IMG/VR virus record: IMGVR_UViG_3300044703_000135
Location: 1 to 34,084 of that record
Reading direction: 5' to 3' (one strand)
DNA length: 34,084 nucleotides
Source: a virus
Position numbers and translations under genes: made by a program. Under the pieces are notes generated by a model. That model did not search any database and was not told the origin of the DNA. It saw nothing but the letters and a program-made list of their open reading frames with translations. Below, in pieces: positions 822 to 33,049 of this stretch. Numbering within the stretch: the stretch's first letter is position 1; each line of letters opens with the position of its first letter.

Positions 822-1732
822 CACGCGTCTCCCATCAGCCGCGACAGGATCGGGCCTTTGATAAGATCGCCCTTCTTCAGCCGCTCGCGGACGATCAACC
901 AGGTAAAGACCGCCACAACGAGGACGATGGCGAGCGCCACCCGCCAATCCAATCCGCCGAAGATCGCCAAGCCCCCGGCGCCGCCGCCGGTGAACAGGAA
1001 TTCGCTGATCTTCATCCACAAGGTCTTGCTCTGGCTCGCCGGCTTCTGCGTTTGCTCCTCTTCGCCGGCGGGCTCGACGTCCGGTGGCGCCGGGGGCGCC
1101 GGCGCGCGCGGCGGCACGGCGACCGGCGGCGCGGCCGGTGCGGCGCTCACATTCGCCTTGCCGAAGCCGATGGACGGATCCAGCACCATCATGCGCTTGA
1201 GCAGCGGCATGATGCCGGCCTGCTGGTCGCGGGCCGACGACGACCAGACATGATCGGCGACATATTTGCCGCCCTCATAGATATTGGAGAAGCTCCAGAG
1301 GTAAGCGGACGGCACGCCCTTTGAGCGATAGCCCCAGCCGTTGAAGCGCTCGCCCTCGTAGCAGAGGCGCTCGATCGACCAGTCGTCGATGCGTTGCAGG
1401 CCCTTCAAGGTCAGCGCGTCGATCGCGGCTTCCTCCCAGCTCTCGAACGGCCCGCGCCCTGCGGGCACCAGCCGCGTCTTGCGGCCGGTGCCGATGATGT
1501 GCTCGCCGTTATGCAGCACGCCAGCAAAGTTGGCGCTCGATTCCCGGTTGTGCAGCACGGCGATGAAGAACCACGGCACGCCGAGCCTAGCTTCGACCTT
1601 TTGATAGACCGGTTTCTTGCCGATGAGTTTGCGGGCGACGGCGTCGAGCACCGGCACCTTGCCCGGCTCGATCTGCATTTGCGCCCATTGCTCGGCATAG
1701 TCGTCGGCGATGTCGGAAAATTTCGCGGGCAT
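821..1732 (-). CDS. Endolysin: lysozyme-like domain with C-terminal membrane anchor
   Basis: A 303-residue protein. Residues 1-185 resemble the lysozyme-like/peptidoglycan-hydrolase domains found in phages. The segment PWFFIAVLHNRESS (residues 53-66) has the form of a muramidase active-site region, with Glu64 as probable catalytic acid. A proline/alanine-rich linker follows at about residues 195-225. A membrane segment lies at about 262-285, with a basic tail. No N-terminal signal is seen, so the C-terminal segment may tether the enzyme to the membrane until the holin acts. It lies between the 48-aa membrane protein and the holin candidate. The exact bond cleaved cannot be told from sequence alone. 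Confidence 0.7.
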   Translation of the reverse strand: MPAKFSDIADDYAEQWAQMQIEPGKVPVLDAVARKLIGKKPVYQKVEARLGVPWFFIAVLHNRESSANFAGVLHNGEHIIGTGRKTRLVPAGRGPFESWEEAAIDALTLKGLQRIDDWSIERLCYEGERFNGWGYRSKGVPSAYLWSFSNIYEGGKYVADHVWSSSARDQQAGIMPLLKRMMVLDPSIGFGKANVSAAPAAPPVAVPPRAPAPPAPPDVEPAGEEEQTQKPASQSKTLWMKISEFLFTGGGAGGLAIFGGLDWRVALAIVLVVAVFTWLIVRERLKKGDLIKGPILSRLMGDA

Positions 1733-1740
1733 GATGCGCC

Positions 1741-1887
1741 TCAGATCAAGAACGAGAGGGCGAGCGCGGCGAGAAAACCCGCCAGCGCGCTGTTGGGATG
1801 TTCCTTGATCTTATCGGCGGTCCACAGCCAGCCGGCCGCGAGCGCGCCGGCGGCCAGGCGGCCGCCGTCTTTCAGCGTGTTCCACAT
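1741..1887 (-). CDS. Small membrane protein, 48 aa
   Basis: A 48-residue frame starting MWNTLKDGGRLAAG. It has an alanine-rich stretch at residues 11-22 and a hydrophobic C-terminus (ALAGFLAALALSFLI). The ribosome site is excellent: AGGAGG six bases before the ATG at 1887. It lies between the tiny lipoprotein and the lysozyme-like gene, so a role in lysis or holin regulation is plausible. It is too short for family assignment. Confidence 0.55.
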   Translation of the reverse strand: MWNTLKDGGRLAAGALAAGWLWTADKIKEHPNSALAGFLAALALSFLI

Positions 1888-1896
1888 GATGTCCTC

Positions 1897-1977
1897 CTAA
1901 CAGGGCCAGAGATGACCGCAGGGCGGAAAGCCGCAGCCGCTCAGCAGCAGCGGGAGAAGCAGGACCAGACGGATCAT
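1897..1977 (-). CDS. Tiny lipoprotein, candidate outer-membrane spanin-like peptide
   Basis: A 26-codon frame: MIRLVLLLPLLLSGCG, then ten more residues ending in Cys. LLSGC is a canonical lipobox, so signal peptidase II would leave a mature lipopeptide of about 12 residues containing three Cys. Its ATG (1975-1977) overlaps the TGA of the M15 peptidase gene (ATGA), suggesting coupled translation. Rz1-like o-spanins are small lipoproteins in this position, but this would be unusually short. The gene is inferred from lipobox and overlap alone. Confidence 0.5.
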   Translation of the reverse strand: MIRLVLLLPLLLSGCGFPPCGHLWPC

Positions 1978-2597
1978 GTGCGCCTGCCATTCCGGCGGGC
2001 GTAGCGATGCTTGCCGCGCCGCGCGTATTGCGTCGTCCCGTGATTGAAGCGCGCGCCCCACTCGCCGCTGCCCGGCGCATAGCTGACATGGATGTGCGCG
2101 ACGCGATGCGCGTCCATGCTCACGCCGCCGGGGAATCCCCGCAGGACGGCGTAGGCGCAGGCATAGTTGCCGACCTGGAAATCCGCCGCGCGGCAGCTCG
2201 CATGCAGAGAAGTGCGATTTGTTCCCGCCACCGTGGCGCCCGGACGGCAGGCGGAGGTGACGCGAAAGCCGGCGCAGGCGGCGGCCACTTGATGCAGGAT
2301 GTTTTGAAGCTGCGAGGGCAGCGCCGAGCTAGTTACACCGGCCAACCTCCTAGCGCCGTCCACGACCGCCTCAACGGCCTTGATCGGCAGGGCGAATGGG
2401 TGGGTCTTGACCGCCTTTTGTTTGACGACCCGTCGCCAAACAACTCGCGCCTTGGCGACATTATGCCTTCGAATCTGTACGGCCTTGACCTTCTGCGGGG
2501 CGAAATAGCTTGGGCTATCCCAAGGGTGCTGAAACCCCGCACTCGCAGGCGTTAAAGCAAATAGACACAGGAGTGACGCAGCGAGAAATGCTCGCAT
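1974..2597 (-). CDS. Secreted M15-type peptidase (endolysin)
   Basis: A 207-residue protein with a Sec signal peptide (residues 1-20, ending TPASA). A basic linker follows, then a C-terminal domain resembling peptidase M15 (D-Ala-D-Ala carboxypeptidase type) zinc enzymes. The segment TSLHASCRAADF (residues 129-140) supplies His132 and Asp139 of the family's SxHxxGxAxD motif, with Cys where Gly is usual. HIHVSY (168-173) supplies the C-terminal zinc His. It would cut peptide cross-links or stems of peptidoglycan in the periplasm. It is the first gene of the lysis block and is followed by an overlapping lipoprotein gene. A second wall hydrolase lies just downstream, so this phage appears to use two. 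Confidence 0.75.
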   Translation of the reverse strand: MRAFLAASLLCLFALTPASAGFQHPWDSPSYFAPQKVKAVQIRRHNVAKARVVWRRVVKQKAVKTHPFALPIKAVEAVVDGARRLAGVTSSALPSQLQNILHQVAAACAGFRVTSACRPGATVAGTNRTSLHASCRAADFQVGNYACAYAVLRGFPGGVSMDAHRVAHIHVSYAPGSGEWGARFNHGTTQYARRGKHRYARRNGRRT

Positions 2598-2651: not shown

Positions 2652-3461
2652 ATGATCCCACAGACGCCTGGGGCGTTCTTTTCTTGGTGCCTCCGCAACG
2701 CAGATTCGGAGCTGACACCCTTCCGCAAGAATTATCCGAAGTATGCCGCGCTCAACGGAAGCGGCGACTATCTCTGGCGGCAATACGACCGCCGGACCTC
2801 TGACCTTCAAGAGCTTGTCCACCCCGGCATTCGCGCCCTAGAAATTGGCTGCGGACTTTCCGCCGATAGTCATTGGATGGCGCTGCGGGGCGCGAGCGTG
2901 TTAGCGATTGACGCGAACAGCCGGTGGATTAGTGGCGCAAAAGCACTATCAGATATTGTCCGCTCTCGTTTCTCAGCGCCGCTCGATATCGAGATTAGAA
3001 AGGAGAACGTTTTTAACGTGACCGGCTCTTTCGATCTGATCTACATGAAGGAGGCTCTACACCACATCGAACCACGCTCCGAAATCGCCGGGAAGCTTGC
3101 TTCGCTTCTCGCGCCAGGCGGCAGCGTCGTTGTACTGGAACCAAACGCAATAAACCCGATCATTCAGGCCGCAATGATCAAGAGGCGCGGTGGGTTCAAC
3201 ACCGTGATTTGCAAGCGCGACCCCATTACCAACGAGCGATTCATTTACGGCAACGAGCGCATTTTGCTACCAAGCTCGATCCGCAAGCTTTTTTCCACGG
3301 CTGGCATTGAAGGACGGACGCGACTGTTTCGTATACTGCCAACAGCGCTCAGCAACGTCCGTCCGTTGACGGCAATCGCCTCTTGGCTGGAAAGCAAGGC
3401 CGAGCGTATTATGGCTCCGCTCTGCATTCATTGCGTCTACCGAGGCAACAAGCCAACCTAA
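2652..3461 (+). CDS. SAM-dependent methyltransferase (cargo gene)
   Basis: A 269-residue class I methyltransferase. Motif I is ALEIGCGLS (residues 62-70), the acidic SAM-ribose-binding residue is Asp87 in VLAIDAN, and post-motif FDLIYMKEALHHI follows near residues 126-138, as in the Methyltransf_11/25 families. The substrate cannot be predicted. It lies on the opposite strand to all neighbours, between the tail fibre and lysis genes. Its TAA overlaps the fibre gene's TAG on the other strand (CTAA at 3458-3461). The start at 2652 is preceded by AGGGTAGG. Codon use looks less GC-rich than the phage core, suggesting independent acquisition (moron), possibly expressed in the lysogen to modify surface polymers or a metabolite. 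Confidence 0.8.
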   Translation: MIPQTPGAFFSWCLRNADSELTPFRKNYPKYAALNGSGDYLWRQYDRRTSDLQELVHPGIRALEIGCGLSADSHWMALRGASVLAIDANSRWISGAKALSDIVRSRFSAPLDIEIRKENVFNVTGSFDLIYMKEALHHIEPRSEIAGKLASLLAPGGSVVVLEPNAINPIIQAAMIKRRGGFNTVICKRDPITNERFIYGNERILLPSSIRKLFSTAGIEGRTRLFRILPTALSNVRPLTAIASWLESKAERIMAPLCIHCVYRGNKPT

Positions 3462-19419: not shown

Positions 19420-19484
19420 TTACCCGAGTTCGGAGTATTGATTGCCGAAGTCGGATACATCCGACTTCGGCTGGAGAGGTGAAG
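19273..19484. repeat. Intergenic repeat unit, copy 2, entering the portal gene
   Basis: A 212-bp second copy with the same nested palindromes, differing from copy 1 by scattered substitutions and one inserted G in CTCGGGTTTACCCGAG. Its right-hand 65 bases encode the last residues and the stop codon of the portal protein. Confidence 0.8.
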
Positions 19485-21690
19485 GGACCGGCTCGACGCC
19501 GATGACGCGGTTCTGGGCGTCGCGGATGACGCGTTTCGGTCCGCTGACCTGGCGCAGGGCGGCAAGCAACTCGCCGAACAGCGGCGACGGATCGAAGCCG
19601 GCCGCCGGCGGGGCGTCGGCGCCCTCGCCTTCCGCCGCGCTCTGTCCAGCCGCGGCGTGCATCGGCCGCGGCTTGAACACCTCGCCGATCAGCTTGCGGT
19701 CGTGCTCCTGCTTCTTCAGCTCGGCATCGAGCAGCTTGAGCTGGCGCTCGAGCTCGAAGCGCTGCTGCGCCAGCGCCATCTCCGATTCCACTTTCTTGTT
19801 CTGGGTCGCGATGTCGGTCTGCGCCTGCAGCTTCTCGAGCTCGGCGCGGAACTGCATTTCCGTGAGCCGCGGGTCCTGCTGCGGCGCCGGCGGCGGCTGG
19901 CCGGCGGGGTCGGTGAAGAACATGTCGGTGTTCTTCAGCTCCAGGATCTTCGCCACTTCTTTCGCCGAGTTATAAAGATTGTTGGGCGAGACTAGGTTGC
20001 TCATGCCCGCCGCCACCGCTTCCTTCTGCAGCCCGATCAGCGCCATGATCTGCGCCAAGCGCTCGGAGCGGCTGCCGGTGCCGAGCCCGACATTGATGGT
20101 CATGTCGTTGCGGGATTTCCATTCCCGCGGATCGACCGACACCCAGGTGTTGCGGAGGCGGACAGAGGCGGGCTTGGTTCCGTGCTTTCTAATGGTCCCG
20201 TGAAGGAGCGAGAACAAGTCCCGTATGCCCGTCTCCGCAAAGATGCGCGCGATCAGCTTCACCCGCGCCTGAGCCGCCGAGAATAATTGGTTGACCGCCG
20301 TGGCCGACTGGTTCTGCAGGGCGTTGGCGTCAATGCCCTGCCCCTGCCGGGTGACGCCGGTGCGCCATTCCCGCGTCATGTCCTGGTATTCGAGCAGCGG
20401 ATAGACATGGTTGCCGATGGTCGGCACCACCTGCCACTGGATGCCGCCCGGCTGCTTGGTGCGCACCACGCCGCCCGGGCGCGAGACCAACAGATCGTCA
20501 AGCGTCTGCTCGCTGGCGTGGGATTCCGCCACTTCCACGCGCGGATTGTTGGCGAGATAGGCGTTGTCCAATAGCGCGCGCAGCAGCGCGGTCTTGATGC
20601 GCTGGATATCCATCACCAGGTCGGCGATCGAGCGGCCGAAGAAGCGATGGGTGATGATCACCGGCGTCATGGCCGCGAACGGCACCATGTCCTGCCGCAC
20701 CACGTCGTCCTCGCCGTTGCGTCGCAGGATCTCGCTTTGGTCGCCGCCGGTGGTGACGCGATAGAGCGCCGGCTTGTCGTCGCCGTCGTAATCCAGCCGC
20801 ACATAATGTTCGGTGATGCGGATCAGGCGGTTGGAGCGGTTGGCGCCGTCATCGGCTTCCGCGCGCGCGCCTTCGTCCACCGTATCGCGCGCCTGGGATT
20901 CGCTGTTGCCGCTCGCGCTATCGGACGGCAGCCGCTTGACCTGCGCCGGCTCATAGCCCTGGCCGATCAGCTCGGCCTGCTCGCGCAGCACCTCGTGGAA
21001 GCAATAGCCGGCGTCGCAGATGCGCCGGGCATTGCGCGCGATGCCGAATTCCTCCGGCGGCACGCCTTCGACCCTGGCGCATTCGTAGGTGCGGCGCGTG
21101 ACCAGGGTCACGTCGTGCAGCTTCGCCTGCGGCGCATCCGGATCGTCCGGTGGGGCGCGCCAGTCCGGGTCGGGCCGTTCGCTGTGCTCGACGATCTCGA
21201 CTTCGGGATCGGAAAGCAGCAGCGCAAAGGCGTCGTCGGGCTGGTCGAAATAGGTCTCGCGCTCTTCCTCCTCTTTCGTCTCCCACCAGACCTTGACGAT
21301 GCCGACCTTGGAGAGGAGCGCATCCTTGATGAAGGAATAGAGCGTGAGGAAGCCCGGGTTCTTCTGCATGAAGACGTGGTTGACGTATTCCGTTTCCTGC
21401 AGGGCGGCGGCGACGTCCTCCGGCCCGACCGGCTCGAACTGCACCACCTCGTCGGAGCCGCAGAAGATCTCCATCAGCGGCGGCATCAGCCCTTCGATGG
21501 TGTCGGCCACATCGGTGGACACCGCCTTGGAGCGCCCATCCACCGGCGGCATGTCCTTCGACATGTCGCCGAGATAGTAGTCCATGGCGTCGCCGCGCTC
21601 CGCGGACAGCGTCGAGGAATTGGCCGACAGCGCAGCCTGCTTCTCCACCGCAAGCATGGCCTTGAGCGTGGACGACGAGATGCGGGGCAT
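19420..21690 (-). CDS. Portal protein
   Basis: 756 residues. The N-terminal two thirds match P22/SU10-type portal proteins: YYLGDMSKDMPPVDGRSKAV (residues 38-57), TDVADTIEGLMPPLMEIFCG, SFIKDALLSKVGIVKVWWET, ITHRFFGRSIADLVMDIQRI and ALLRALLDNAYLANNPRVEV. A Gln/Glu-rich coiled-coil C-terminus follows (about 620-690), typical of the barrel or crown. Twelve subunits form the DNA channel and dock terminase and tail adaptor. The last 20 or so residues (PLQPKSDVSDFGNQYSELG) are encoded by an intergenic repeat that replaced the native end. It follows the metallopeptidase-like gene by 3 bases. Confidence 0.9.
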   Translation of the reverse strand: MPRISSSTLKAMLAVEKQAALSANSSTLSAERGDAMDYYLGDMSKDMPPVDGRSKAVSTDVADTIEGLMPPLMEIFCGSDEVVQFEPVGPEDVAAALQETEYVNHVFMQKNPGFLTLYSFIKDALLSKVGIVKVWWETKEEEERETYFDQPDDAFALLLSDPEVEIVEHSERPDPDWRAPPDDPDAPQAKLHDVTLVTRRTYECARVEGVPPEEFGIARNARRICDAGYCFHEVLREQAELIGQGYEPAQVKRLPSDSASGNSESQARDTVDEGARAEADDGANRSNRLIRITEHYVRLDYDGDDKPALYRVTTGGDQSEILRRNGEDDVVRQDMVPFAAMTPVIITHRFFGRSIADLVMDIQRIKTALLRALLDNAYLANNPRVEVAESHASEQTLDDLLVSRPGGVVRTKQPGGIQWQVVPTIGNHVYPLLEYQDMTREWRTGVTRQGQGIDANALQNQSATAVNQLFSAAQARVKLIARIFAETGIRDLFSLLHGTIRKHGTKPASVRLRNTWVSVDPREWKSRNDMTINVGLGTGSRSERLAQIMALIGLQKEAVAAGMSNLVSPNNLYNSAKEVAKILELKNTDMFFTDPAGQPPPAPQQDPRLTEMQFRAELEKLQAQTDIATQNKKVESEMALAQQRFELERQLKLLDAELKKQEHDRKLIGEVFKPRPMHAAAGQSAAEGEGADAPPAAGFDPSPLFGELLAALRQVSGPKRVIRDAQNRVIGVEPVPSPLQPKSDVSDFGNQYSELG

Positions 21691-21693
21691 GAT

Positions 21694-22584
21694 CTAATCG
21701 AAAAATATCGGAGGCATTGGAGACGGAATCCGGAGTGGATAAAGCGGTTCGAAAGTATCGGAATCCAAGATGATTTGCCGTTCGTCCGGAACTTCCTGGT
21801 CGAGCCAAGGTGGACGCTCAAGGCGCTGCGCAGGGGACATTTTCAAGCGGCGTTCGGTAAGCGTTGCTTCTTCCTCCCCGGCCAGCTCCCGATATGCGGC
21901 TTCCGCATTCCTTTGCCGGGCTGGACCGACCGCGCGGTCCCGGTCGATAAAGTACTGCATCAAATTGACGCTACCCCCTGGTGCAAAACCTTCTCGATAT
22001 TGAACGGCGTGGCCCAATTCGTGAACTACTGCTTTGAGACGCTCTTCGGGATCAAGCGCTGCCGAGATCTCGATTGTTTCAGGTTCGTCCCTATACGGCC
22101 GTATATAGCGAGCCGAAGCACCGGACATGCCTGCTACAATCCGGACCTGAATCTTCGCCAGGTCGGGATGAGCTTTGAAAAGACGTGGATGGTTGAGCAG
22201 TTCGCCGATCGTATTGCCGCCGGGATTCAGCGTCGCGTCATGATCTGAAACCTCGAACCGCGGTTTCCCGTCCGCAAGTCGCAACCATCCCGTCGACGAC
22301 AGGACTCTATCGCGGGGAAGGCCCTTACTTTCCATCTCCTCGGCCCGCTCGAGCGCTGCATGATCGGCCGTTTGAGCATTACGGCCCACAAAGGTTACCG
22401 GTGTGAAGCGCAGGAGATTGTCGCTCCATGCCACTGCCGGGTTGACCGTCGGCTGGCCAAAGTCACCCCGTCCCATTTCAAAGCGAGAGCTTTCATTTTG
22501 TAGCGGCACGCGCTCCCACGACTCCGGTTCGGGCGCTTTCCTCATCAGAGATTCGAGCAACAGCGGATTGCTAATTATCGTCAT
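21694..22584 (-). CDS. Metallopeptidase-like phage protein (HELGH), copy 1
   Basis: 296 residues. AVVHELGHAVQYREGF (residues 185-200) is a zinc-metallopeptidase HExxH motif. Around it are ETIEISAALDPEERLK upstream and a conserved helix GEEEATLTERRLKM downstream that could supply a third ligand. It resembles the LPD23-like domain of large polyvalent phage proteins (family name from memory). The C-terminus ends with a conserved acidic/Pro strand (RQIILDSD...PPIFFD). It is a diverged paralog of 24970-25794, with shared GGNTIGELLNHP-type segments. It lies between the portal gene and the secreted-protein array. It may process a virion protein; substrate unknown. Confidence 0.7.
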   Translation of the reverse strand: MTIISNPLLLESLMRKAPEPESWERVPLQNESSRFEMGRGDFGQPTVNPAVAWSDNLLRFTPVTFVGRNAQTADHAALERAEEMESKGLPRDRVLSSTGWLRLADGKPRFEVSDHDATLNPGGNTIGELLNHPRLFKAHPDLAKIQVRIVAGMSGASARYIRPYRDEPETIEISAALDPEERLKAVVHELGHAVQYREGFAPGGSVNLMQYFIDRDRAVGPARQRNAEAAYRELAGEEEATLTERRLKMSPAQRLERPPWLDQEVPDERQIILDSDTFEPLYPLRIPSPMPPIFFD

Positions 22585-22789
22585 GGCATTATTCCTAATA
22601 GCGGATCGTGAACCGCGCTTTGGAGCAGCATGCGGCGGTACCGCGCTCGGCGCATTACACCATCACGCAGGGCCGGCAGGCACGTCGTCTCACGGGCGAC
22701 CAAGTCCGTGTCCGCTGCACCGGCTTGGCGCCTGCTGACCGCGGCCGGACGACCGCGTATTTTCAAAAGCAGGATGTCGGCCCGCCATA

Positions 22790-22818
22790 TTGCAACCGAA
22801 ATTGTCCGGGCAAATAAG
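22790..22818 (+). promoter_or_regulatory. Candidate promoter of PAN gene 1
   Basis: TTGCAA (22790-22795), a 17-base spacer and AATAAG (22813-22818), 24 bases before the start codon. The surrounding bases (CATATTGCAACC) recur before three other PAN genes. Confidence 0.45.
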
Positions 22819-22841
22819 CCGCTTTACGCAGGGAGGGTGTC

Positions 22842-23237
22842 ATGAATTCGAAGTGTCTGGCTTTTGCTACCAGCCTGCTTTTATTGAACGCCGTTCCGTC
22901 CGCTGCCGAGCGCGGACGCGACTACATGTGGTTGCCCGAGACGTCACTCACGTTCGAGCGTAATTTCGAGCCGTTCGCACGTGTCGATACAATGGACGCT
23001 TGCCGGGACATTTGTCTGAAAGATGAGCGTTGCAGCGGCTGGACCTATTATCATTCCGACTTCGTCGGAGCCGGGCCGCGCGAAACCTGGGAGCCGTTGC
23101 GCCGCACGTGCGTGGTCGGCGCGGGTATCAAAGAGCGCAATTTCAGGGGTGCGCCCGGCCGCACCTCCGGTGTAATCACGCTATCCCGCGAGTGCGCGCC
23201 GCTTCCCGGAGTCGATCCCCGTTCCTACATGTGTTGA
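22842..23237 (+). CDS. Secreted PAN/Apple-like protein, copy 1
   Basis: 131 residues with a signal peptide (1-22, ending PSAAE). The mature part has a PAN/Apple-like core: TSLTFERNFEPFARVD, then CRDICLKDERCSGWTYY (Cys54, Cys58, Cys64), RETWEPLRRTC (Cys90) and GRTSGVI, with Cys118 and a C-terminal Cys131. Six mature Cys suggest three disulfides. PAN domains bind proteins or glycans outside the cell. The start at 22842 has GGAGGG five bases upstream. It points away from the metallopeptidase-like gene and is the first of three tandem plus-strand paralogs. A role in lysogen surface properties is inference. Confidence 0.75.
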   Translation: MNSKCLAFATSLLLLNAVPSAAERGRDYMWLPETSLTFERNFEPFARVDTMDACRDICLKDERCSGWTYYHSDFVGAGPRETWEPLRRTCVVGAGIKERNFRGAPGRTSGVITLSRECAPLPGVDPRSYMC

Positions 23238-23298
23238 GCGCACATCCGCGTCCGCTTTGCTTCTTAAGCGTCGCGCGATGATTGCCCCGGAATCAAAA

Positions 23299-23324
23299 GC
23301 CCGGCTCGGTGTCACCGGCCGGGC
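23299..23324 (+). terminator. Hairpin, possible terminator after PAN gene 1
   Basis: GCCCGGCTCGGT / ACCGGCCGGGC can form a long, strong stem after the stop codon of the first PAN gene. It is followed by only a weak T-run (GCAATTCTT), so terminator strength is uncertain. Near-identical hairpins occur at 24115-24140 and 28403-28427. Confidence 0.5.
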
Positions 23325-23436
23325 GCAATTCTTGGATTTGTATTTCCCGAATTATCCGCGTCGCGCGGTTTCGTCAAACGCGAAGTCTTCGCCCCTGTGA
23401 ACTTCTGTCGATGAATGACGTATGCGCTGCACTTCG

Positions 23437-23560
23437 CGTCATTCCGGGGCGCGAGCGCAGCTCGCGAACCCGGAATCCATCACGGCGATGTACCACAATC
23501 ACAACGACACGGAGTTATGGATTCCGGCTCTCGGGCATTCCTGCCCTCGGCCGGAATGAC
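23437..23560. repeat. Bradyrhizobial-type palindromic repeat, copy 1
   Basis: The arms CGTCATTCCGGGGCGCGAGC and GGCCGGAATGAC, with inner arms ACCCGGAATCCAT and ATGGATTCCGG, form a large imperfect palindrome. This is a well-known type of dispersed repeat in Bradyrhizobiaceae, supporting the host guess. It recurs at 24253-24376. Confidence 0.7.
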
Positions 23561-23605
23561 AGCTCGACGCGTATTTGCACAAGGGACGGATATTGCTCCG
23601 CCTTA

Positions 23606-23634
23606 TTGCAACCTGAATTGTGCGGATCGATAGG
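23606..23634 (+). promoter_or_regulatory. Candidate promoter of PAN gene 2
   Basis: TTGCAA (23606-23611), 17-base spacer, GATAGG (23629-23634). The block TATTGCAACCTGAATTGT is shared with the promoter regions of PAN genes 3 and (nearly) 4. Confidence 0.45.
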
Positions 23635-23660
23635 CCGGGTATTCAAGCGGGGAGGATGCC

Positions 23661-24053
23661 GTGATCTCCAAGCGCCTTGCTGTTACCTGCCTTCTGGTTT
23701 CTTTGAAAAGCATCTGTCCGGCGGATGCGCAGGATCTCTTTGACCCCTCATGGCAGCCCGACACCTCATTCATTTTTGAGCGGACTTTTGAGCCATTCGC
23801 CCGTGTCGACAACCCGCAAGCCTGCCGGGAAATCTGCCAAAAGGATAGGCGCTGCACCCGCTGGACTTACTACCACCCGGACTTCGTCGGGATAGGTCCG
23901 CGGGAGACCTGGGAACCGTTGCGGACAACGTGTGTCATTGGAGCAGGTCTGAAGGAACGGATTCCGGGTCACGCTGGTCGCACGTCGGGCCAGATCGCTC
24001 GTCGCGAGTGCCCGCCGCTATCCGGAGTAGACCCCCGTTCCTACGTGTGTTGA
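23661..24053 (+). CDS. Secreted PAN/Apple-like protein, copy 2 (GTG start)
   Basis: 130 residues with a signal peptide (1-23, ending ADAQ). The core is CREICQKDRRCTRWTYY (Cys55, Cys59, Cys65), RETWEPLRTTC (Cys91), GRTSGQI, Cys117 and C-terminal Cys130. It is the closest paralog of copy 1, with start-to-start distance 819 and stop-to-stop 816. The GTG at 23661 has GGGGAGG five bases upstream; an ATG just before it gives only a two-codon frame. Tandem duplication followed by divergence is clear. Binding partner unknown. Confidence 0.75.
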   Translation: MISKRLAVTCLLVSLKSICPADAQDLFDPSWQPDTSFIFERTFEPFARVDNPQACREICQKDRRCTRWTYYHPDFVGIGPRETWEPLRTTCVIGAGLKERIPGHAGRTSGQIARRECPPLSGVDPRSYVC

Positions 24054-24114
24054 GCGCACATCCGCGTCCGCTTCGCTTCTTAAGCGCTGAGCGATGATTG
24101 CCTCGGAATCAAAA

Positions 24115-24140
24115 GCCCGGCGCGGTGTCACCGGCCGGGC
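24115..24140 (+). terminator. Hairpin, possible terminator after PAN gene 2
   Basis: GCCCGGCGCGGT / ACCGGCCGGGC stem with a short loop, 62 bases after the stop codon. It is the duplicate of the hairpin at 23299-23324. Confidence 0.5.
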
Positions 24141-24252
24141 GCAATTCCTGGATTTGTATTTTCCGAATTATCCGCGTCATGCAGTTCTGTCAAAGGCGAA
24201 GTCTTTGCACCTGTGAACTTCCTGCCGATGAATGACGTATGCGAAGCACTTC

Positions 24253-24376
24253 GCGTCATTCCGGGGCGCGAGCGCAGCTCGCGAACCCGGAATCCATAAT
24301 CATCGGCAATCCGAAATCGGAAAGACCGCGATCTGGATTCCGGCACTCGGGCACTTCGTGCCCGCAGCCGGAATGA
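24253..24376. repeat. Bradyrhizobial-type palindromic repeat, copy 2
   Basis: The outer arms CGTCATTCCGGGGCGCGAGC and GCCGGAATGAC match the element at 23437-23560, but the centre differs. It is part of the tandemly duplicated unit. Confidence 0.7.
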
Positions 24377-24414
24377 CAGCTCGGCGCGTATTATTCATGG
24401 ATTATGCAGCCATA

Positions 24415-24443
24415 TTGCAACCTGAATTGTACGCATCAATAGG
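24415..24443 (+). promoter_or_regulatory. Candidate promoter of PAN gene 3
   Basis: TTGCAA (24415-24420), 17-base spacer, AATAGG (24438-24443), preceded by CATA as in the others. Confidence 0.45.
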
Positions 24444-24513
24444 CGGCGTTCAGGGAGGGAGGCACACGATGATCGCGGTGCGTTTTCGTGCTGAAACGTC
24501 GACGGAGGACGAT

Positions 24514-24933
24514 ATGAGGCTGACATACACTGCTTTCGCCTGCGTCTTGGCTCTCTCAACATCTTTTCTTCCGGCCGGCGCAGAGCACAGGGGAGGCTCC
24601 CGCTGGCTGCCCGACACCGCCCTGACATTCGATCAAGAACTTGAACCGGCTGCGCCTGTGGATGCGCTGCTAGATTGCAAAAGGATCTGCGAGAAGGACG
24701 AGCGTTGTGACGGCTGGACTTTTTTTCCTCGCAACTTTGTCCGCGCCGACGGGCGTCCGGAGAGGTGGGAAGCGTTGCGCGGGGCCTGTGTCATGGGATC
24801 CGGCGTGAGAGAGTGGAGTCGGGACTCCGGCCTGCGCAAGGGCATTTTGTACAGTGCTCCCGGCCGCATCTCGGGGGTGATCATCCCCCCGCTCGGCTGC
24901 CCGGAGAACCTCGAGCCAGGAGCCATGTGCTGA
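24514..24933 (+). CDS. Secreted PAN/Apple-like protein, copy 3
   Basis: 139 residues from the ATG at 24514, with GGAGGACGAT before it and a good signal peptide (1-23, ending PAGAE). An upstream ATG at 24469, also with a GGAGGGAGG site, would add MIAVRFRAETSTEDD, which is homologous to copy 4's start but spoils the signal. The core is CKRICEKDERCDGWTFF (Cys55, Cys59, Cys65), ERWEALRGAC (Cys92), then an inserted segment (EWSRDSGLRKGILY), GRISGVI, Cys129 and terminal Cys139. It is the most diverged six-Cys copy and meets the second metallopeptidase-like gene tail to tail, 36 bases apart. Confidence 0.7.
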   Translation: MRLTYTAFACVLALSTSFLPAGAEHRGGSRWLPDTALTFDQELEPAAPVDALLDCKRICEKDERCDGWTFFPRNFVRADGRPERWEALRGACVMGSGVREWSRDSGLRKGILYSAPGRISGVIIPPLGCPENLEPGAMC

Positions 24934-24969
24934 ACCATATGCGCATGACGCAACGTCGACCTGGGTGGC

Positions 24970-25794
24970 CTATTCGAAAAACACGGGCGGTTTGGGAAAC
25001 GGAATAGGCAGAGTCGAGCCGTCGCGCGACCGCTCCAAAACGATTTGGCGCTCACGCGCGATCGGCTCGTCGTTCCATGGGCTAACTCGGAGCCTATCAG
25101 CCGGAAGCATGTCCAAACGCTTTGCGGCAGTTTGTGCTTCGACCTCACCAGCGATCATATTATAGACTCCTAGCGCTTCTTCAGGGCCGAATGGGCCGAG
25201 TCTGCCCACGCGAGCGATTTGCCGGCGCATCCAATCCGGACCGGTGCCTGGTGAAAAGCCTTCTCTGTTCTGGATCACGTGTTGCACTTCATGGATCAGA
25301 TTCGAATGGAGCTCATCATCGGTGCTGTGCGGCGAAAGCTCGATTCTTTCTGGCCCACCGCTGCCGGACTGGTAATAGGCCGCGTGCCCGCGAGGCAGTC
25401 TATCGTTGTACACAATGGGAATATCCGCGATGTCATAATTGGCGTGGAGTTCTGGATGGTGGAGGGATTCTCCCAAGGTTCTGCCCCCTCGGGTAAATTT
25501 TGAGGTGTCGTCCGAAATCTCCCATCTCCAGTGGCGGTCGCGCCCCCTTCCCCATCCCGTGTCCTCCAAAATATAATCGGCGATATCGCCAGCGGCCTCC
25601 CTCTCCTTGGCGCTCCGTAGCGCATCCATGTTGGCGTTCTTGGCTTTGCGGCCGGCAAAAAGAGCTTGGGCCATCAGGTCGGACAGGCGGAAACCCTCTG
25701 AGGCGGTAAACTGGGCCGTCTCGGGTTGTCCCGCAGGAAACTCTTCGTCCGGCAGTCCGGCCGATTCCCACGGGTTGGGCAAAAATGGAATCAT
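24970..25794 (-). CDS. Metallopeptidase-like phage protein (HEVQH), copy 2
   Basis: 274 residues from the ATG at 25794 (MIPFLPNPWESAGLPDEE), which overlaps the terL stop (TGATG). NLIHEVQHVIQNREGF (165-180) keeps the HExxH pair and downstream NREGF of copy 1. RTLGESLHHPEL, ERIELSPHSTDDELHS and GEVEAQTAAKRLDMLPADRL match copy 1 in order, as does the end (RQIVLERS...PPVFFE). The pair is clearly paralogous but well diverged, with copy 1 between the array and portal. The order terL, this gene, then portal is probably ancestral; copy 1 now occupies the portal-side place. Substrate unknown. Confidence 0.7.
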   Translation of the reverse strand: MIPFLPNPWESAGLPDEEFPAGQPETAQFTASEGFRLSDLMAQALFAGRKAKNANMDALRSAKEREAAGDIADYILEDTGWGRGRDRHWRWEISDDTSKFTRGGRTLGESLHHPELHANYDIADIPIVYNDRLPRGHAAYYQSGSGGPERIELSPHSTDDELHSNLIHEVQHVIQNREGFSPGTGPDWMRRQIARVGRLGPFGPEEALGVYNMIAGEVEAQTAAKRLDMLPADRLRVSPWNDEPIARERQIVLERSRDGSTLPIPFPKPPVFFE

Positions 25795-27362
25795 CACACG
25801 GCTCCTGTTTGCGGATATTGGATCGTGCGGGCAAAGCCCGCGTCGGGGGACACCGGCTCGGCAAAGGTCAAAGCCACCGCGTCCCACTCGTCGGGGCTCG
25901 GCACGCCGCGCCGTCGCATGTCGTCCTTGCGTTCCAGCACCAGCCGCGTCTGGCTGTCCCAGCGGTAGCTCGGGCCGCAGGCGTCGGCCTGCAAACTGTC
26001 GGAATCCGGGATCTGCGCGCCGGCGGGATCTTCCAGCCACTCTTTCGATTTCATCCACATCTCGGCGCGGCGGTTGAGCGGACCGCCGTTCGGCTTGCCG
26101 TGTTGGTCGCGCGGCGGCGGCTCGACCGGCGCGGAGCCGAAATTCACCGGCCGCACGATGCCGCCGTAGCCCTGCTCCTTCAGCCGGTCATAGACGCCGG
26201 CGCCGACGCCGCCGACGTCGACGAACACGCGCTTGGGATCGTCCTTGTCGATCACCTGCCGCAGCCAGCCGGCCGCCTGCATGGTATCGAGCTTGCTGCG
26301 GCTCTCGACCTGCAACAGCTTGCGCCCGCGCCGCCATGCCATCGCGGCGCGATCGGTTCCCATCCAGGCCGGATCGAAGCCGATTACCAAAGGCCCGGAC
26401 GGCTCGCAGGTGAACTTGCGCGCGCGCGCGACCAGCGCCGGCGCGATGTAGCTGTCGTGCCCGCTCATCTGGAACGCCTCGGCCGCGCTTGCGGGATATT
26501 CCTGCTTGAACAGGACCGGGTCCTTCAGCTCGCCGATCTTGCCGCGGCGCCAGGCGAGCTGCGCGCGATCGAGCCCGTAGAGCCGCGCGTATTCGCGCTC
26601 CTCCTCGTCGGGCGCAAAATCCGTCGGCGGCGGCTTGCGGTATTCCTCCTGCCAGTACCAGGGCACGAAGATCGCGATGTAATCGTTGCGGCCGGTCTCG
26701 GCGTCGCGCCACATCTGGTGGAAGAAATTGCCGACGCCGTTGGCGGTGCTTTCCAGCACGATCTCGCTGCCCGCTTCGTCCGGCACCGCCTGCAGCACGC
26801 CGGCGGCGTGGGTGTCGGCATAGGGCCAGAACGCCACTTCCGAGCCGTGAAACAACTGGATGGTGGAGGAGCGCCCGACCCCGCGGGTGCGCGCGGTGCC
26901 GACCTTGTAGCCGCTGTCGAGCCGGTCGAAATTCAGCTCCTTGGCATTGGCCGCGCCGGTGGAAGGCTTCAGCGGCGCGGGGCAATGCTCGTGAAAGCGA
27001 TTGACCATCTCGAACAGGTTCTGCGTCGCCGCGTCCTCATGGGTGAGGATGAAAGTGCGCAGGCCGAAACTGTGGCTGGTGCGGTGATAGAACCGCCCGC
27101 CGACATAGGTGGAGCAGCCCTGCTGCCGGCCCTTGAGGATGAGCGCGCGCACTTTGCCGAGCGCGGCCTTCTGCCGCTCGAGCTGTTCGTGGATGTGCCG
27201 CTGCGCCTTGTTCAGAATGAGCGGCGCGATCTCGCCCGCTTTGCTCCTGATCCGCAGGCAGGCGGCGGCGTAGTACGGGAAGTCAGCGCGCAGGCTCTGC
27301 CGGATGTCGCGCTCGCGGTCCGTCAAGCTGCGCAAGGGTGTCCTCGTGTCGCAAGCCCGCAT
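25794..27362 (-). CDS. terL: Terminase large subunit
   Basis: 522 residues. The ATPase part has a Walker A-like KGRQQGCST (77-85), a Walker B region near GSEVAFWP (173-180) and a coupling motif ESTANG (204-209). The nuclease part (RNase H-like) has Asp330 in IGFDPAWMGTD and Asp382 in VFVDVGGVG, and late acidic residues in SPDEWDAVAL. It packages DNA into the procapsid through the portal. The start is uncertain: the ATG at 27362, or a TTG about 30 bases downstream (before RSLTDRERD) with GAGGAC upstream, a site also kept in the terL remnant near 28.1 kb. The complete gene follows only a 3' fragment of terS. Confidence 0.9.
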   Translation of the reverse strand: MRACDTRTPLRSLTDRERDIRQSLRADFPYYAAACLRIRSKAGEIAPLILNKAQRHIHEQLERQKAALGKVRALILKGRQQGCSTYVGGRFYHRTSHSFGLRTFILTHEDAATQNLFEMVNRFHEHCPAPLKPSTGAANAKELNFDRLDSGYKVGTARTRGVGRSSTIQLFHGSEVAFWPYADTHAAGVLQAVPDEAGSEIVLESTANGVGNFFHQMWRDAETGRNDYIAIFVPWYWQEEYRKPPPTDFAPDEEEREYARLYGLDRAQLAWRRGKIGELKDPVLFKQEYPASAAEAFQMSGHDSYIAPALVARARKFTCEPSGPLVIGFDPAWMGTDRAAMAWRRGRKLLQVESRSKLDTMQAAGWLRQVIDKDDPKRVFVDVGGVGAGVYDRLKEQGYGGIVRPVNFGSAPVEPPPRDQHGKPNGGPLNRRAEMWMKSKEWLEDPAGAQIPDSDSLQADACGPSYRWDSQTRLVLERKDDMRRRGVPSPDEWDAVALTFAEPVSPDAGFARTIQYPQTGAV

Positions 27363-27438
27363 CGCCGTCGTGATCGACGGCGCTGAGATCGGGCAGCGTC
27401 TTCTTCAGCAGCGCCAGGCTGGCGGTGACCTGCGCCGA
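27263..27438. repeat. Direct repeat of the terS-terL junction, copy 1
   Basis: About 176 bp nearly identical to 28061-28237. It carries the start of terL and, in the overlapping frame, the last 50 or so codons of terS. The right boundary is near GCGCCGA, after which the two sites differ completely. Confidence 0.75.
27283..27438 (-). pseudogene. 3' fragment of terminase small subunit gene
   Basis: Translates as a truncated terS end (AQVTASLALLKKTLPDLSAV, then DHDGDAGLRHEDTLAQLDGP and a stop at 27283). It lacks the N-terminal DNA-binding half and any start codon. The intact gene is at 28082-28363. The fragment overlaps the start of terL and marks the edge of a duplication that now has PAN gene 4 in its centre. 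Confidence 0.7.
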
Positions 27439-27502
27439 GACTCTTACGGCTGAAATGCCGCCAAGCGCGCCGCCTCATGTCAACGGGTGGATAATCGCCA
27501 TA

Positions 27503-27531
27503 TTGCAACCTGAATTCTACGCACCAATAGG
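27503..27531 (+). promoter_or_regulatory. Candidate promoter of PAN gene 4
   Basis: TTGCAA (27503-27508), 17-base spacer, AATAGG (27526-27531), within the shared block ATATTGCAACCTGAATTCTA, closely matching that of PAN gene 3. Confidence 0.5.
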
Positions 27532-27556
27532 CGGTGTATTCAGGAGGGTGGATACC

Positions 27557-27946
27557 ATGATCGCGAAGCGCTTCGCTTTGGCCTTCGTTTCAGTTCTTTC
27601 CGGTATCTCCATGGCCGATGCTCAGAAACGGCTCTCGGGTTGGGAGCCTGACACCTCCTTGAGATTTGAACGAACTCTTGAACCGTCCGTCTATGTAGAG
27701 ACACCGGAGGCGTGCCGAGAGATTTGCTTGAAGGACAAGCGTTGTACCGGATGGACTTATTATCACCCGGAGTTCACCGGTGAGGGAGCGCGGGAGACTT
27801 GGGAACCGCTGCGGGGCGCCTGTTTCATGGGAACGGCCATAGGGCGGAATATGGAGAAAGCTCCCGGACTTACCTCCGGCATGGTCAGGGAGGTTTGGGA
27901 CTGCGCGCCGCCGAGCATCAAAGGACACCAGCAATATGTGTGTTGA
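27557..27946 (+). CDS. Secreted PAN/Apple-like protein, copy 4
   Basis: 129 residues with a signal peptide (1-22, ending MADAQ). The core is CREICLKDKRCTGWTYY (Cys53, Cys57, Cys63), RETWEPLRGAC (Cys89), LTSGMV, Cys116 and terminal Cys129. The ATG at 27557 has AGGAGGGTGG upstream. It lies between the two copies of the terS-terL junction repeat, divergent from terL and convergent with the terL remnant and terS. So it sits inside the packaging operon, on the opposite strand. Function beyond probable extracellular binding is unknown. Confidence 0.75.
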   Translation: MIAKRFALAFVSVLSGISMADAQKRLSGWEPDTSLRFERTLEPSVYVETPEACREICLKDKRCTGWTYYHPEFTGEGARETWEPLRGACFMGTAIGRNMEKAPGLTSGMVREVWDCAPPSIKGHQQYVC

Positions 27947-28010
27947 GGAGTCCTCCGCTTCAACTCGCTCAAAGTGCGATCCATCCGGCGAGCGACCATC
28001 CGCAATTTAA

Positions 28011-28130
28011 TCGGGCGAAGCCCGCGTCGGGGACGCCGGCTCGGCAAAGGTCAAAGCTAGACGGCGACGTCGTGCGGGAAGTCAGCGCGCAGTCTTTGCC
28101 GGATGTCGCGCTCGCGGTCCGTCAAGCTGG
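28011..28130 (-). pseudogene. terL remnant with large internal deletion
   Basis: The right part reads SLTDRERDIRQRLRADFPHD then a stop, matching the terL N-terminus. The left part (28011-28058) matches the terL 3' end (ALTFAEP...). The roughly 470 codons between them are missing. It still follows terS exactly as terL should, with the same GAGGAC-CTTG start context. This is direct evidence for a second, deleted terL copy. Confidence 0.75.
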
Positions 28131-28237
28131 GCAAGAGTGTCCTCGTGCCGCAAGCCCGCGTCGCCATCGTGCTCGACGGCGCTCAGATCGGGCAGCGTCT
28201 TTTTCAGCAGCGCCAGGCTGGCGGTGACCTGCGCCGA
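28061..28237. repeat. Direct repeat of the terS-terL junction, copy 2
   Basis: The 177-bp partner of 27263-27438, containing the 3' half of the intact terS gene and the start of the terL remnant. Scattered substitutions show that the duplication is not recent. Confidence 0.75.
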
Positions 28238-28363
28238 TTCCATCTCGCATTCGCCGTGGATGAAGGATTGCAGCCGCCGGATGATGCGGGCGGTCTGGAT
28301 GCCGGCGCGTACCTGTTTGTTGTTGTCGTTTTTGCGTCTGACCGGCTTGCTGCGTCTTGCCAC
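28082..28363 (-). CDS. terS: Terminase small subunit
   Basis: 93 residues from a GTG at 28363 with GAGGAG upstream. The N-terminus is basic (MARRSKPVRRKNDNNKQVRA), a helix-rich middle follows (TARIIRRLQSFIHGECEMES) and then a helical oligomerisation-like part (QVTASLALLKKTLPDLSAV). It would bind the packaging start site and activate terL. The identification rests on position directly before terL (and its remnant) and general features of small terminases. Its 3' half is repeated at 27263-27438. Confidence 0.65.
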   Translation of the reverse strand: MARRSKPVRRKNDNNKQVRAGIQTARIIRRLQSFIHGECEMESAQVTASLALLKKTLPDLSAVEHDGDAGLRHEDTLAQLDGPRARHPAKTAR

Positions 28364-28402
28364 GTCGCTCCTCGGTGGATGGCGGCCGCTCCGGAATCAA
28401 AA

Positions 28403-28427
28403 ACCCGGCGCGGTGTCCCGGCCGGGC
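28403..28427 (+). terminator. Third copy of the PAN-type hairpin
   Basis: ACCCGGCGCGGTGTCCCGGCCGGGC can fold as the hairpins after PAN genes 1 and 2. The flanks (CCGGAATCAAAA before; GACGCAATTTTCGGATTTG after) also match. It now lies upstream of terS with no PAN gene directly before it, so it is probably a relic of another duplication. Confidence 0.45.
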
Positions 28428-28617
28428 AACTGTTGGACGCAATTTTCGGATTTGCATTGTCCGAATTATCGGCGCCGCTCCATTCTGTCAAACGCGATGT
28501 GCCCGCGCCTGTGAATGTGGAGGGTCAATGTTGGTGAAGGAATATGGCGCGAGCGGCGAATACCGGATACGCTCTTGTTCGTCTCGGTTTTACTCAATAG
28601 AAAACAGGGAGATGAAA

Positions 28618-28974
28618 ATGTCCCGTCAAAAAAGGTCCATCGGCGTCGCCTTTTCCCTCTTTAGTTTTTTGTCCGTCCTCACCGTTATCGGTTTGAGCGC
28701 GGAACGGCTTAAAGCAGACAGCCCGGTCGTGGCGGCAGCAGCCGCAACCACCCCTGCGTCGATGGAAATTCAAGCGATCGCGGACGATTTCGCCATGCGG
28801 CACCCTGGCGTTCGCGAATATCATCCGGTGGCGCCCGCCGCGCGGCAACGGTTCGCGCAGACGCGCGAGCAATGCATTGAGGCTTGCTTGGGACCTTACG
28901 GGGATTGCATGAGAGCCGGCCACTCGCAAGCACAGTGCAATCAGGTTATCAGATCGTGTCGCGCTGCTTGTTAG
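28618..28974 (+). CDS. Secreted six-cysteine protein
   Basis: 118 residues from the ATG at 28618 (AGGGAG six bases upstream). The signal segment lies at about 12-33 (VAFSLFSFLSVLTVIGLSAE). A linker region follows, then a C-terminal domain with six Cys spaced C-x3-C-x6-C-x9-C-x6-C-x3-C, a symmetric pattern that suggests a disulfide-stapled helical hairpin. It is not a PAN domain. It lies on the plus strand, divergent from terS, among the PAN genes, so it probably belongs to the same secreted cargo. I do not recognise a named family. Confidence 0.6.
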   Translation: MSRQKRSIGVAFSLFSFLSVLTVIGLSAERLKADSPVVAAAAATTPASMEIQAIADDFAMRHPGVREYHPVAPAARQRFAQTREQCIEACLGPYGDCMRAGHSQAQCNQVIRSCRAAC

Positions 28975-29106
28975 CAATCACCTTCGTGAGATTGCGCCAA
29001 TCCTAGAAAGCCGGCCGCGGACTGCCGGGCCGAGCAGTGGCGCTGAATTCGTGGAAGCTGCAGGCATCGCGCTGAGAGCTAAGCGTATCAGAACGGGATG
29101 CGAACC

Positions 29107-29421
29107 ATGAATCCGCGCGGCTTTGCATTTGCGTTTGCCTTGTTGCCAGCGTTTGCGACAGCCGTCCTTCCGGCCCAGGCCCAGGGCGTCCGAACCTCCA
29201 CATGGGAGGCGGATACGTCGATGCGTTTTCAGGACAACATCATGGTGCTTTCCCGCAGCGTCAAGACGGCGGAGGCCTGCCGCGACATCTGCCTGGGAAA
29301 CAGGCTCTGCACGGCGTGGAGCTATTTCGGCGCATTCCCGGACGCCCATTGCTTCATCGGCGCGGGCGTTAAGGGCCGGACGTCGGGCGCCGCCGGCAAA
29401 ACGTCGGGAGAGATCAAGTAG
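29107..29421 (+). CDS. Secreted PAN/Apple-like protein, copy 5 (short form)
   Basis: 104 residues from the ATG at 29107 (an ATG at 29098 would add three residues). Signal peptide 1-26 (ending PAQAQ). The core is CRDICLGNRLCTAWSYF (Cys58, Cys62, Cys68), then a short FPDAHCFIGAG (Cys82) and GKTSGEIK at the end. It lacks the RETWEPLR segment and the two C-terminal Cys, so it resembles a minimal PAN_4-type domain with two disulfides. The preceding sequence VRTSTWEADTSMRF is shared with copy 6. No TTGCAA promoter block is evident here. Confidence 0.7.
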   Translation: MNPRGFAFAFALLPAFATAVLPAQAQGVRTSTWEADTSMRFQDNIMVLSRSVKTAEACRDICLGNRLCTAWSYFGAFPDAHCFIGAGVKGRTSGAAGKTSGEIK

Positions 29422-29502
29422 CGCAAGCTGCGCGAGGGAGCGGGGCGTAACCCTGGCTATGTGCGGCGCGTCTCGAACCCTCATGGTGAGGAGGGTCGCC
29501 AC

Positions 29503-29615
29503 TACCGCATTTCGAAATACTCACGAGACACCAAGCTCGCGCTTGCGGTCCGCAAGCCTGCCGCGCGGGCATGGCTCGCCATGCGCGGCGACACGCGCCA
29601 CCGCCCGCGCCTGTG
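29503..29615 (-). pseudogene. Duplicated 3' fragment of the 175-aa gene
   Basis: About 110 bp that aligns with the 3' end of the gene at 30134-30661; CCGCGCGGGCATGGCTCGCC is identical at both sites, followed by GCGCCACCGCCCGCGCC. It has no start and no full frame. PAN gene 6 lies exactly between fragment and intact gene. Confidence 0.65.
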
Positions 29616-29626
29616 CACTTGGATGT

Positions 29627-29655
29627 TTGCAACCCGCCTCGCGCGAGCTAAGATT
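29627..29655 (+). promoter_or_regulatory. Candidate promoter of PAN gene 6
   Basis: TTGCAA (29627-29632), 17-base spacer, AAGATT (29650-29655). The hexamer, spacing and distance to the start (25 bases) match the other PAN genes, though the spacer sequence differs. Confidence 0.4.
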
Positions 29656-29680
29656 GTGCACTCTGCGCATGGAGGGTGGC

Positions 29681-30043
29681 ATGAGCCGGAAGCATTTCGC
29701 CTTCGCCTTCATCTCGATGCTTGCAATCAGCCATTGGCCCGCCGGTGCGCAGGAGGTGCGAACGTCGACGGTGGAGCCCGACACCTCGCTGACTTTCAAC
29801 CGATATTTCGAGCCGTTTGCTCGCGTCGACACCCCGCAGGCCTGCCGCGACATCTGCCTGAAGGACCGACGCTGCACCGGCTGGACTTACTATCATCCGA
29901 GCTTCGTCGGCTCGGGACCGCGGGAGACCTGGGAAACGTTGCTGCGCACCTGCGTTATCGGAGCCGGCCTCAAGCATCGGTGGTCGGGCGATGCGCGCGG
30001 CCGCACAGCCGGAGAGATCAGGTCGCGCCCCGGAGGCGTGTGA
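29681..30043 (+). CDS. Secreted PAN/Apple-like protein, copy 6
   Basis: 120 residues from the ATG at 29681 (GGAGGGTGGC before it). Signal peptide 1-24 (ending PAGAQ). The core is CRDICLKDRRCTGWTYY (Cys55, Cys59, Cys65), RETWETLLRTC (Cys91) and GRTAGEI. It ends without the two C-terminal Cys of copies 1-4. An overlapping frame on the same strand runs on far upstream but codes only for Arg-rich noise there. It meets the 175-aa phage gene tail to tail. Confidence 0.75.
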   Translation: MSRKHFAFAFISMLAISHWPAGAQEVRTSTVEPDTSLTFNRYFEPFARVDTPQACRDICLKDRRCTGWTYYHPSFVGSGPRETWETLLRTCVIGAGLKHRWSGDARGRTAGEIRSRPGGV

Positions 30044-30133: not shown

Positions 30134-30661
30134 CTACCGCAGCCCGAAATGCTTCACCAGCGCGCTGAGCCCGCGCTTGAGATCGGCCAGCCCGCCGCGC
30201 GGGCATGGCTCGCCATGCACGGCGACCCGCGCCACCGCCCGCGCCGCCTTCTGTCCCGCTTCGAACACCGCCGCGACGGCCGTGTCGTAGCGCTCCTTGC
30301 GCTTGCGGCATTCGCATTCGATTGCCGTGCCCGGCGGAGGCCGCCGGCAGATCTCCGGCGCGCAGGGATAGCCCTTGCCGGAGCCCGACATGATCGAGGG
30401 CGTGCCGATGGATGCGCGATATTGCCCGACGATGTAAGCGTAGCGCTGCCCGGCTTCGTACTGCGCATCGGTGATGACGTTGATCAGGTTGAGCGCGCCG
30501 AACGGCGTGTCGGCCTTCTGGTCGAGCCGCACCGGCTCGGGCAGCCAGCGGCGGTGCGGCTGCTGCGCGGCGAGCGCGCGGTAATCGACCTTGACCCGCA
30601 CCAGCTCTCCGCTCGGATGGCGGGGGCCGGCCAGTCGCTTGCGGCCTCGTCGTCGTGCCAT
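30134..30661 (-). CDS. Phage protein of unknown function, 175 aa
   Basis: 175 residues with a basic N-terminus (MARRRGRKRLAGPRHPSGEL). Middle segments follow (NLINVITDAQYEAGQRYAYI) and a Cys-containing basic part CECRKRKERYDTAVAAVFEA. It ends LADLKRGLSALVKHFGLR. It lies between the replication-organiser-like gene and terS, where rhizobial prophages often carry such a gene; I know of no function. Its start is at the stop of the upstream gene. Its last 110 bases are duplicated at 29503-29615. Confidence 0.6.
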   Translation of the reverse strand: MARRRGRKRLAGPRHPSGELVRVKVDYRALAAQQPHRRWLPEPVRLDQKADTPFGALNLINVITDAQYEAGQRYAYIVGQYRASIGTPSIMSGSGKGYPCAPEICRRPPPGTAIECECRKRKERYDTAVAAVFEAGQKAARAVARVAVHGEPCPRGGLADLKRGLSALVKHFGLR

Positions 30662-32972: not shown

Positions 32973-33049
32973 CGCGCTCATTCGTCTACCGCCGCCGCTG
33001 CGAGGATTCGTCCGGTCATTGCGCCTGGGAAAGCCATCGTGGCGCTGTC

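Follow-up and report, generated by a model that had tools for sequence, protein, structure and literature searches.

The IMG/VR virus record IMGVR_UViG_3300044703_000135, a linear stretch of 34,084 bases that was analysed at full length and is called the window here, carries in its DNA-packaging region six paralogous genes for small proteins with secretion-type N-termini and a PAN/apple fold (Table 1). An original prediction, made from the bare sequence, had proposed six plus-strand genes sharing signal peptides, a cysteine-rich core and a common C-terminal ending, and closer analysis bears this out. All six genes lie at the proposed starts and are open (for copy 5, an alternative start at 29098 gives 107 aa), and each product, as read from the sequence, begins with a signal-peptide-like stretch that ends in an AxA-type site and lacks a lipobox. 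The core motif C[KR]xIC-x5-C-xx-W[TS][YF] occurs once per copy and nowhere else when the window is translated in all six frames, six occurrences in total; its absence from all 200 codon-block shuffles rules out chance matches. The G-x-[TIA]-[SA]-G ending is found in 6/6 copies, and the mature cysteine counts agree with those proposed. Four core cysteines in the helix–strand hairpin region (C54, C58, C64 and C90, copy 1 numbering) are invariant in all six proteins, each of which consists of one domain with an ETWEPLR-type insert, four of them having an extra C-terminal cysteine pair.

Best known in animals, plants and parasites, PAN/apple domains serve as binding modules outside cells, and those studied bind proteins and carbohydrates. 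Assignment of the six proteins to this class is supported in three ways: by Pfam profiles, by a profile search of the PDB and by the predicted fold. At the Pfam cut-off for PAN_4 (27 bits), the proposed assignment holds for copies 1, 2, 4 and 6, while copies 3 and 5 fall just under it; copy 5 clears the PAN_2 cut-off by 0.1 bit (21.2 versus 21.1), and copy 3 lies under every PAN cut-off (23.4 versus 27), yet can be aligned with the other copies. Searching the PDB with a six-copy profile retrieved apple domains and one PAN module, and nothing else. The six sequences also served to build a model of mature copy 6, of moderate confidence (mean predicted local distance difference test score, pLDDT, 64.5). 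The PDB entries listed as matching it are all PAN/apple or PAN-like, the best of them reaching a Z of 8.9 (86 residues aligned, 3.9 Å); a first model that included the signal peptide was too poor (pLDDT 55) and was set aside. In a viral structure library, the top named matches to the copy 6 model were PAN/apple proteins of giant viruses, and some further matches were nameless, so that a phage could be among them. These giant-virus proteins (Pandoravirus, Marseillevirus LCMAC and mimivirus relatives) are virus-borne too, but they belong to viruses of eukaryotes, show about 13–20% identity and have no known gene neighbourhood in common with the array. None of the PHROG families matches copies 1, 5 or 6.

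Table 1. The PAN gene array, its neighbours and the duplicated elements, in window coordinates
Feature	Position	Strand	Details
Portal protein, SU10-type	19420..21690	-	PF23899, E 1.6e-200
LPD23 + metallopeptidase-like, paralogue a	21694..22584	-	PF18838, E 3e-16; weak DUF6782
PAN copy 1	22842..23237	+	131 aa; signal peptide; six mature cysteines; PAN_4 30.5 bits
Conserved leader before copy 2	23605..23635	+	
PAN copy 2	23661..24053	+	130 aa; GTG start; six mature cysteines; PAN_4 31.5 bits
Conserved leader before copy 3	24414..24444	+	
PAN copy 3	24514..24933	+	139 aa; six mature cysteines; PAN_4 23.4 bits
LPD23 + metallopeptidase-like, paralogue b	24970..25767	-	PF18838, E 2e-16; weak DUF6782
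terL, terminase large subunit	25794..27362	-	open; phrog_2, E 7.5e-32
Duplicated terS/terL junction, left copy	27260..27438		92% to 28059-28237
Conserved leader before copy 4	27502..27532	+	
PAN copy 4	27557..27946	+	129 aa; six mature cysteines; PAN_4 32.5 bits
terL 3' end scrap, 46 nt	28012..28057		94% to 25828-25874; adjoins copy 4 repeat
Duplicated terS/terL junction, right copy	28059..28237		179-nt direct repeat
terS-like gene, upstream of terL	28082..28363	-	relatives match at terS/terL junction
Small secreted cysteine-rich protein	28612..28974	+	between copies 4 and 5; signal-peptide-like N-terminus
PAN copy 5	29107..29421	+	104 aa; four mature cysteines; PAN_4 24.3 bits
orf30134 3' end scrap	29502..29611		83% to 30134-30245; downstream of copy 5
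PAN copy 6	29681..30043	+	120 aa; four mature cysteines; PAN_4 32.0 bits; structure modelled

The array was proposed to lie opposite and between the packaging genes. The packaging region is indeed on the opposite strand, with copies 1–3 between portal and terL and copy 4 between terL and terS, but copies 5 and 6 lie upstream of terS and not between packaging genes. Overlooked at first were the gene for a small secreted cysteine-rich protein, the scraps of terL, terS and orf30134, and two LPD23 paralogues, which border copies 1–3 on either side. The cysteine-rich protein has six cysteines within its final 35 residues and no match in Pfam, PHROG or NCBIfam; the terS-like gene also gave no match in a family search. 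Placement among packaging genes would suit proteins that decorate virions or act at lysis, a role that we consider very improbable, as all six copies run opposite to the late operon, bear secretion signals and are absent from all relatives.

The phage itself has the SU10 portal and capsid families of SU10-like podoviruses (capsid PF17236, E 2.1e-99), along with phrog_1328 and phrog_1216, and differs from those examined in carrying the PAN array. A scaffold protein comes after terL in the usual order, and the right side of the window encodes a protein with a DnaA C-terminal domain and an XRE-type regulator at 33039. Among the tail and lysis genes, a plus-strand methyltransferase (2652-3461) partially matches the PADLOC model mad2. 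Relatives of the phage terL are common in metagenomes and number only six among 84,980 species genomes, where several sit within long bacterial contigs, which suggests that the group is temperate.

The copies do not behave as decaying genes; decay together with lack of transcription was one of two outcomes that the original prediction had named as fatal to it. No copy is frameshifted, all frames are open, and ratios of non-synonymous to synonymous divergence (dN/dS) between copies of 0.17-0.65 indicate purifying selection, which rules out decay; these ratios are rough and the copies old, given synonymous-site differences of 53 to 72%. Copies 3 and 5 are the most diverged. GC content at third codon positions is 0.64-0.71 in copies 1–4 and 0.79-0.80 in copies 5 and 6, compared with 0.87-0.88 in the terL, portal and capsid genes. 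Such host-type composition, together with palindromic repeats between copies and the restriction of the array to a single record, could also be accounted for by a degraded prophage into which insertion or misassembly brought host PAN genes that have no phage role. This explanation appears unlikely to us, given that the copies are spread over 7 kb amid open phage genes, portal, terL and capsid included, are bordered by duplicated phage gene ends, evolve under purifying selection and share one origin. Of the repeats, the GC-rich pair with a palindromic core (23405-23480 versus 24222-24297) is 96% alike, and its core was not found in 397 Rhizobiales genomes or in IMG/VR contigs.

How the array grew can be read from the DNA between its members. 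Copies 1 and 2 belong to a tandem duplication (22754-23655 versus 23568-24462) whose units follow each other at intervals of about 0.82 kb, the direct repeat of the terS/terL junction brackets copy 4, and the orf30134 scrap is placed relative to copy 5 as orf30134 is to copy 6, that is, downstream. The array expanded by tandem duplication in place, as shown by the repeated scraps of terL, terS and orf30134 that separate its copies; terS, terL and portal have remained open throughout. For copy 4, the simplest history is that terL and the PAN gene at its end were duplicated in tandem and one terL then suffered an internal deletion; the order of the duplication steps is inferred.

Units 1 and 2 have diverged unevenly. 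Over the initial 345 nt of coding sequence they are 64% identical, with 42% identity at third codon positions, whereas identity rises to 91% over the 294 nt made up of the final codons and the DNA that follows (Fisher p about 4e-17). Gene conversion may have homogenised the flanks, or PAN coding cassettes may have been swapped between near-identical flanks; both would produce the same pattern. Cassette exchange would amount to a diversification system borne by the phage, a suggestion that we regard as speculative and rather unlikely; if true, it would be the phage counterpart of a variable surface-protein locus.

A conserved leader precedes copies 2, 3 and 4, giving three matches where none is expected by chance. 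Terminator matches near the copies are no more frequent than chance. A further repeated element with a GC-rich hairpin is found at 23284-23401, 24100-24217 and 28388-28515, its hairpin outperforming shuffled sequences in the first two copies only; the copy just upstream of terS could be a promoter, a terminator or a packaging site.

In related phages the array is missing. PAN genes were found neither at 86 terL loci, of which six come from species genomes, nor at 46 portal loci, four of them overlapping the terL set, and the terS/terL junction is unbroken in the relatives L007, L012 and L031. A tblastn search of 50,697 phage records with copy 1 and a rhizobial PAN protein returned no match. 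Degenerate-pattern scans of viral and genome contigs, a method that reaches close relatives only, found nothing either, and a signal-peptide screen of opposite-strand open reading frames (ORFs) in relatives was too crude and noisy to be used. In keeping with the claim that such an array is undescribed as phage cargo, nothing comparable appeared in those phage records or among IMG/VR relatives, and full-text searches of the open literature found no paper linking PAN domains with phages.

The site itself is variable: in 9/23 distinct relative contigs no more than about 15 bp separate terL from portal, and in the remaining ones the gap is filled by 0.08 to 4.8 kb of other sequence, which means that the terL–portal gap accepts cargo in general. 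This extends to other secreted cargo: in one relative (L020:9384-11387, plus strand), the gap encodes a protein of 667 aa whose N-terminus resembles a signal peptide. Separately, the portal match is broken near residues 170-189 in many relatives (L073, L116, L121-L128, L132 and others) by inserts that range in length from about 50 bp to 1.7 kb and in some cases contain other ORFs.

Bacteria of the Rhizobiales, the likely host order, commonly encode PAN_4 domains, which we detected in 113/297 genomes. Many reside in open frames about 1,850 residues long, one of which proved on examination to be an alpha-2-macroglobulin with an N-terminal PAN domain, in a Mesorhizobium genome that also carries a terL relative; other PAN_4 proteins are smaller, of the secreted type, with one to five PAN domains, and the domain also occurs together with a trypsin-like peptidase. 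The secreted proteins share with those of the phage the signal peptide, the PAN_4 domain with its CxxxC...CxxW core and the SG end (a two-domain protein in L093/L147, a five-domain protein in the rhizobial genome L168), but most of those seen have at least two PAN domains or extra domains, whereas the phage proteins have one. The five tandem PAN_4 domains on L168 belong to a secreted protein at 1000-2265 (minus strand), and more PAN genes lie on the same contig. An alignment search of 397 genomes from the order and 385 from the class of a Mesorhizobium gave two weak matches, although such a search, which scores about ten candidates per genome, underestimates. In Rhizobium etli, the reported secretome includes an apple-domain protein (PMC2964644), and the PAN domain class has been reported in bacteria and viruses (PMC9249922). 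In a tree with 32 host domains, the six phage domains form one separate group (100/100), and, within the limits of long branches and limited sampling, this fits one capture followed by amplification.

Taken together, the signal peptides, the cysteine-stabilised binding fold, the orientation against the late genes and the foreign composition are what lead us to take the six proteins as secreted binders. We consider it moderately likely that the genes are lysogenic-conversion cargo, a family of secreted binders captured once, amplified, and altering the surface or surroundings of the lysogen. The ancestor would have been one gene, coding for a secreted PAN_4 protein with a single domain, that the phage acquired, probably from a Rhizobiales-type bacterium; it would then have multiplied by tandem duplication along with the ends of neighbouring packaging genes and been retained by selection while its copies diverged in sequence and cysteine number. 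Expressed from the prophage, the proteins would be exported via the general secretion pathway, would fold, stabilised by disulfides, either in the periplasm or extracellularly, and would act as small binding modules for glycans or proteins, to the benefit of the lysogen. For CBEL, a protein of oomycetes, a lectin activity of its PAN domains has been proposed (PMC3532174). The most likely effect would be a change in what the lysogen surface or its surroundings stick to, and the role in adhesion, superinfection or host interaction put forward by the original prediction may be seen in the same light. The array resembles phage morons in consisting of extra genes that oppose the late operon, differ in composition and are missing in relatives; it is unlike them in comprising six paralogues of one fold, amplified with packaging-gene scraps, whose own promoters were not recognised.

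Several observations weigh against lysogenic conversion. The evidence for the array comes from one record, a linear fragment whose scanned proteins included none recognised as an integrase; a search for sigma-70-like promoters near the copies found none; the nearest genomic terL relatives are spread over Hyphomicrobium, Mesorhizobium and Xanthomonadales; and synonymous sites are almost saturated, which loosens the estimates of selection.

Two other functions deserve consideration. Secreted PAN proteins might coat surface receptors or glycans and thereby block adsorption of related phages, with different copies covering several receptors. The presence of several diverged copies of one binder fold in a prophage location, and the ability of PAN domains to bind glycans (PMC3532174), would agree with such superinfection exclusion, which we nevertheless consider rather unlikely, no link between the proteins and any known exclusion family having come to light. 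A PADLOC scan found no match in the array, and a known defence system was rejected on that account. Alternatively, the PAN proteins might be targeting or regulatory subunits of proteases, acting with the LPD23 metallopeptidase-like proteins that border copies 1–3 or with a host macroglobulin, much as rhizobial PAN_4 domains occur on the N-terminus of alpha-2-macroglobulin and with a trypsin-like peptidase. The LPD23 genes, however, are on the other strand and have no signal peptide in their sequence, and a distant LPD23 relative lies near terL in the relative L067 without a PAN gene, which leaves a protease role quite improbable.

Since PAN_4 domains are common in rhizobial genomes, what is new here is the phage location and the amplified array, the kind of protein and the kind of cargo both being known already. 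The scraps of terL and terS provide a readable record of how cargo can multiply within an essential phage module without destroying it. Binding by single bacterial PAN domains has been little studied, and the array offers a compact system for asking what such domains bind. If our interpretation as lysogenic-conversion cargo is true, temperate phages can equip their hosts with secreted binders as a ready-made family.

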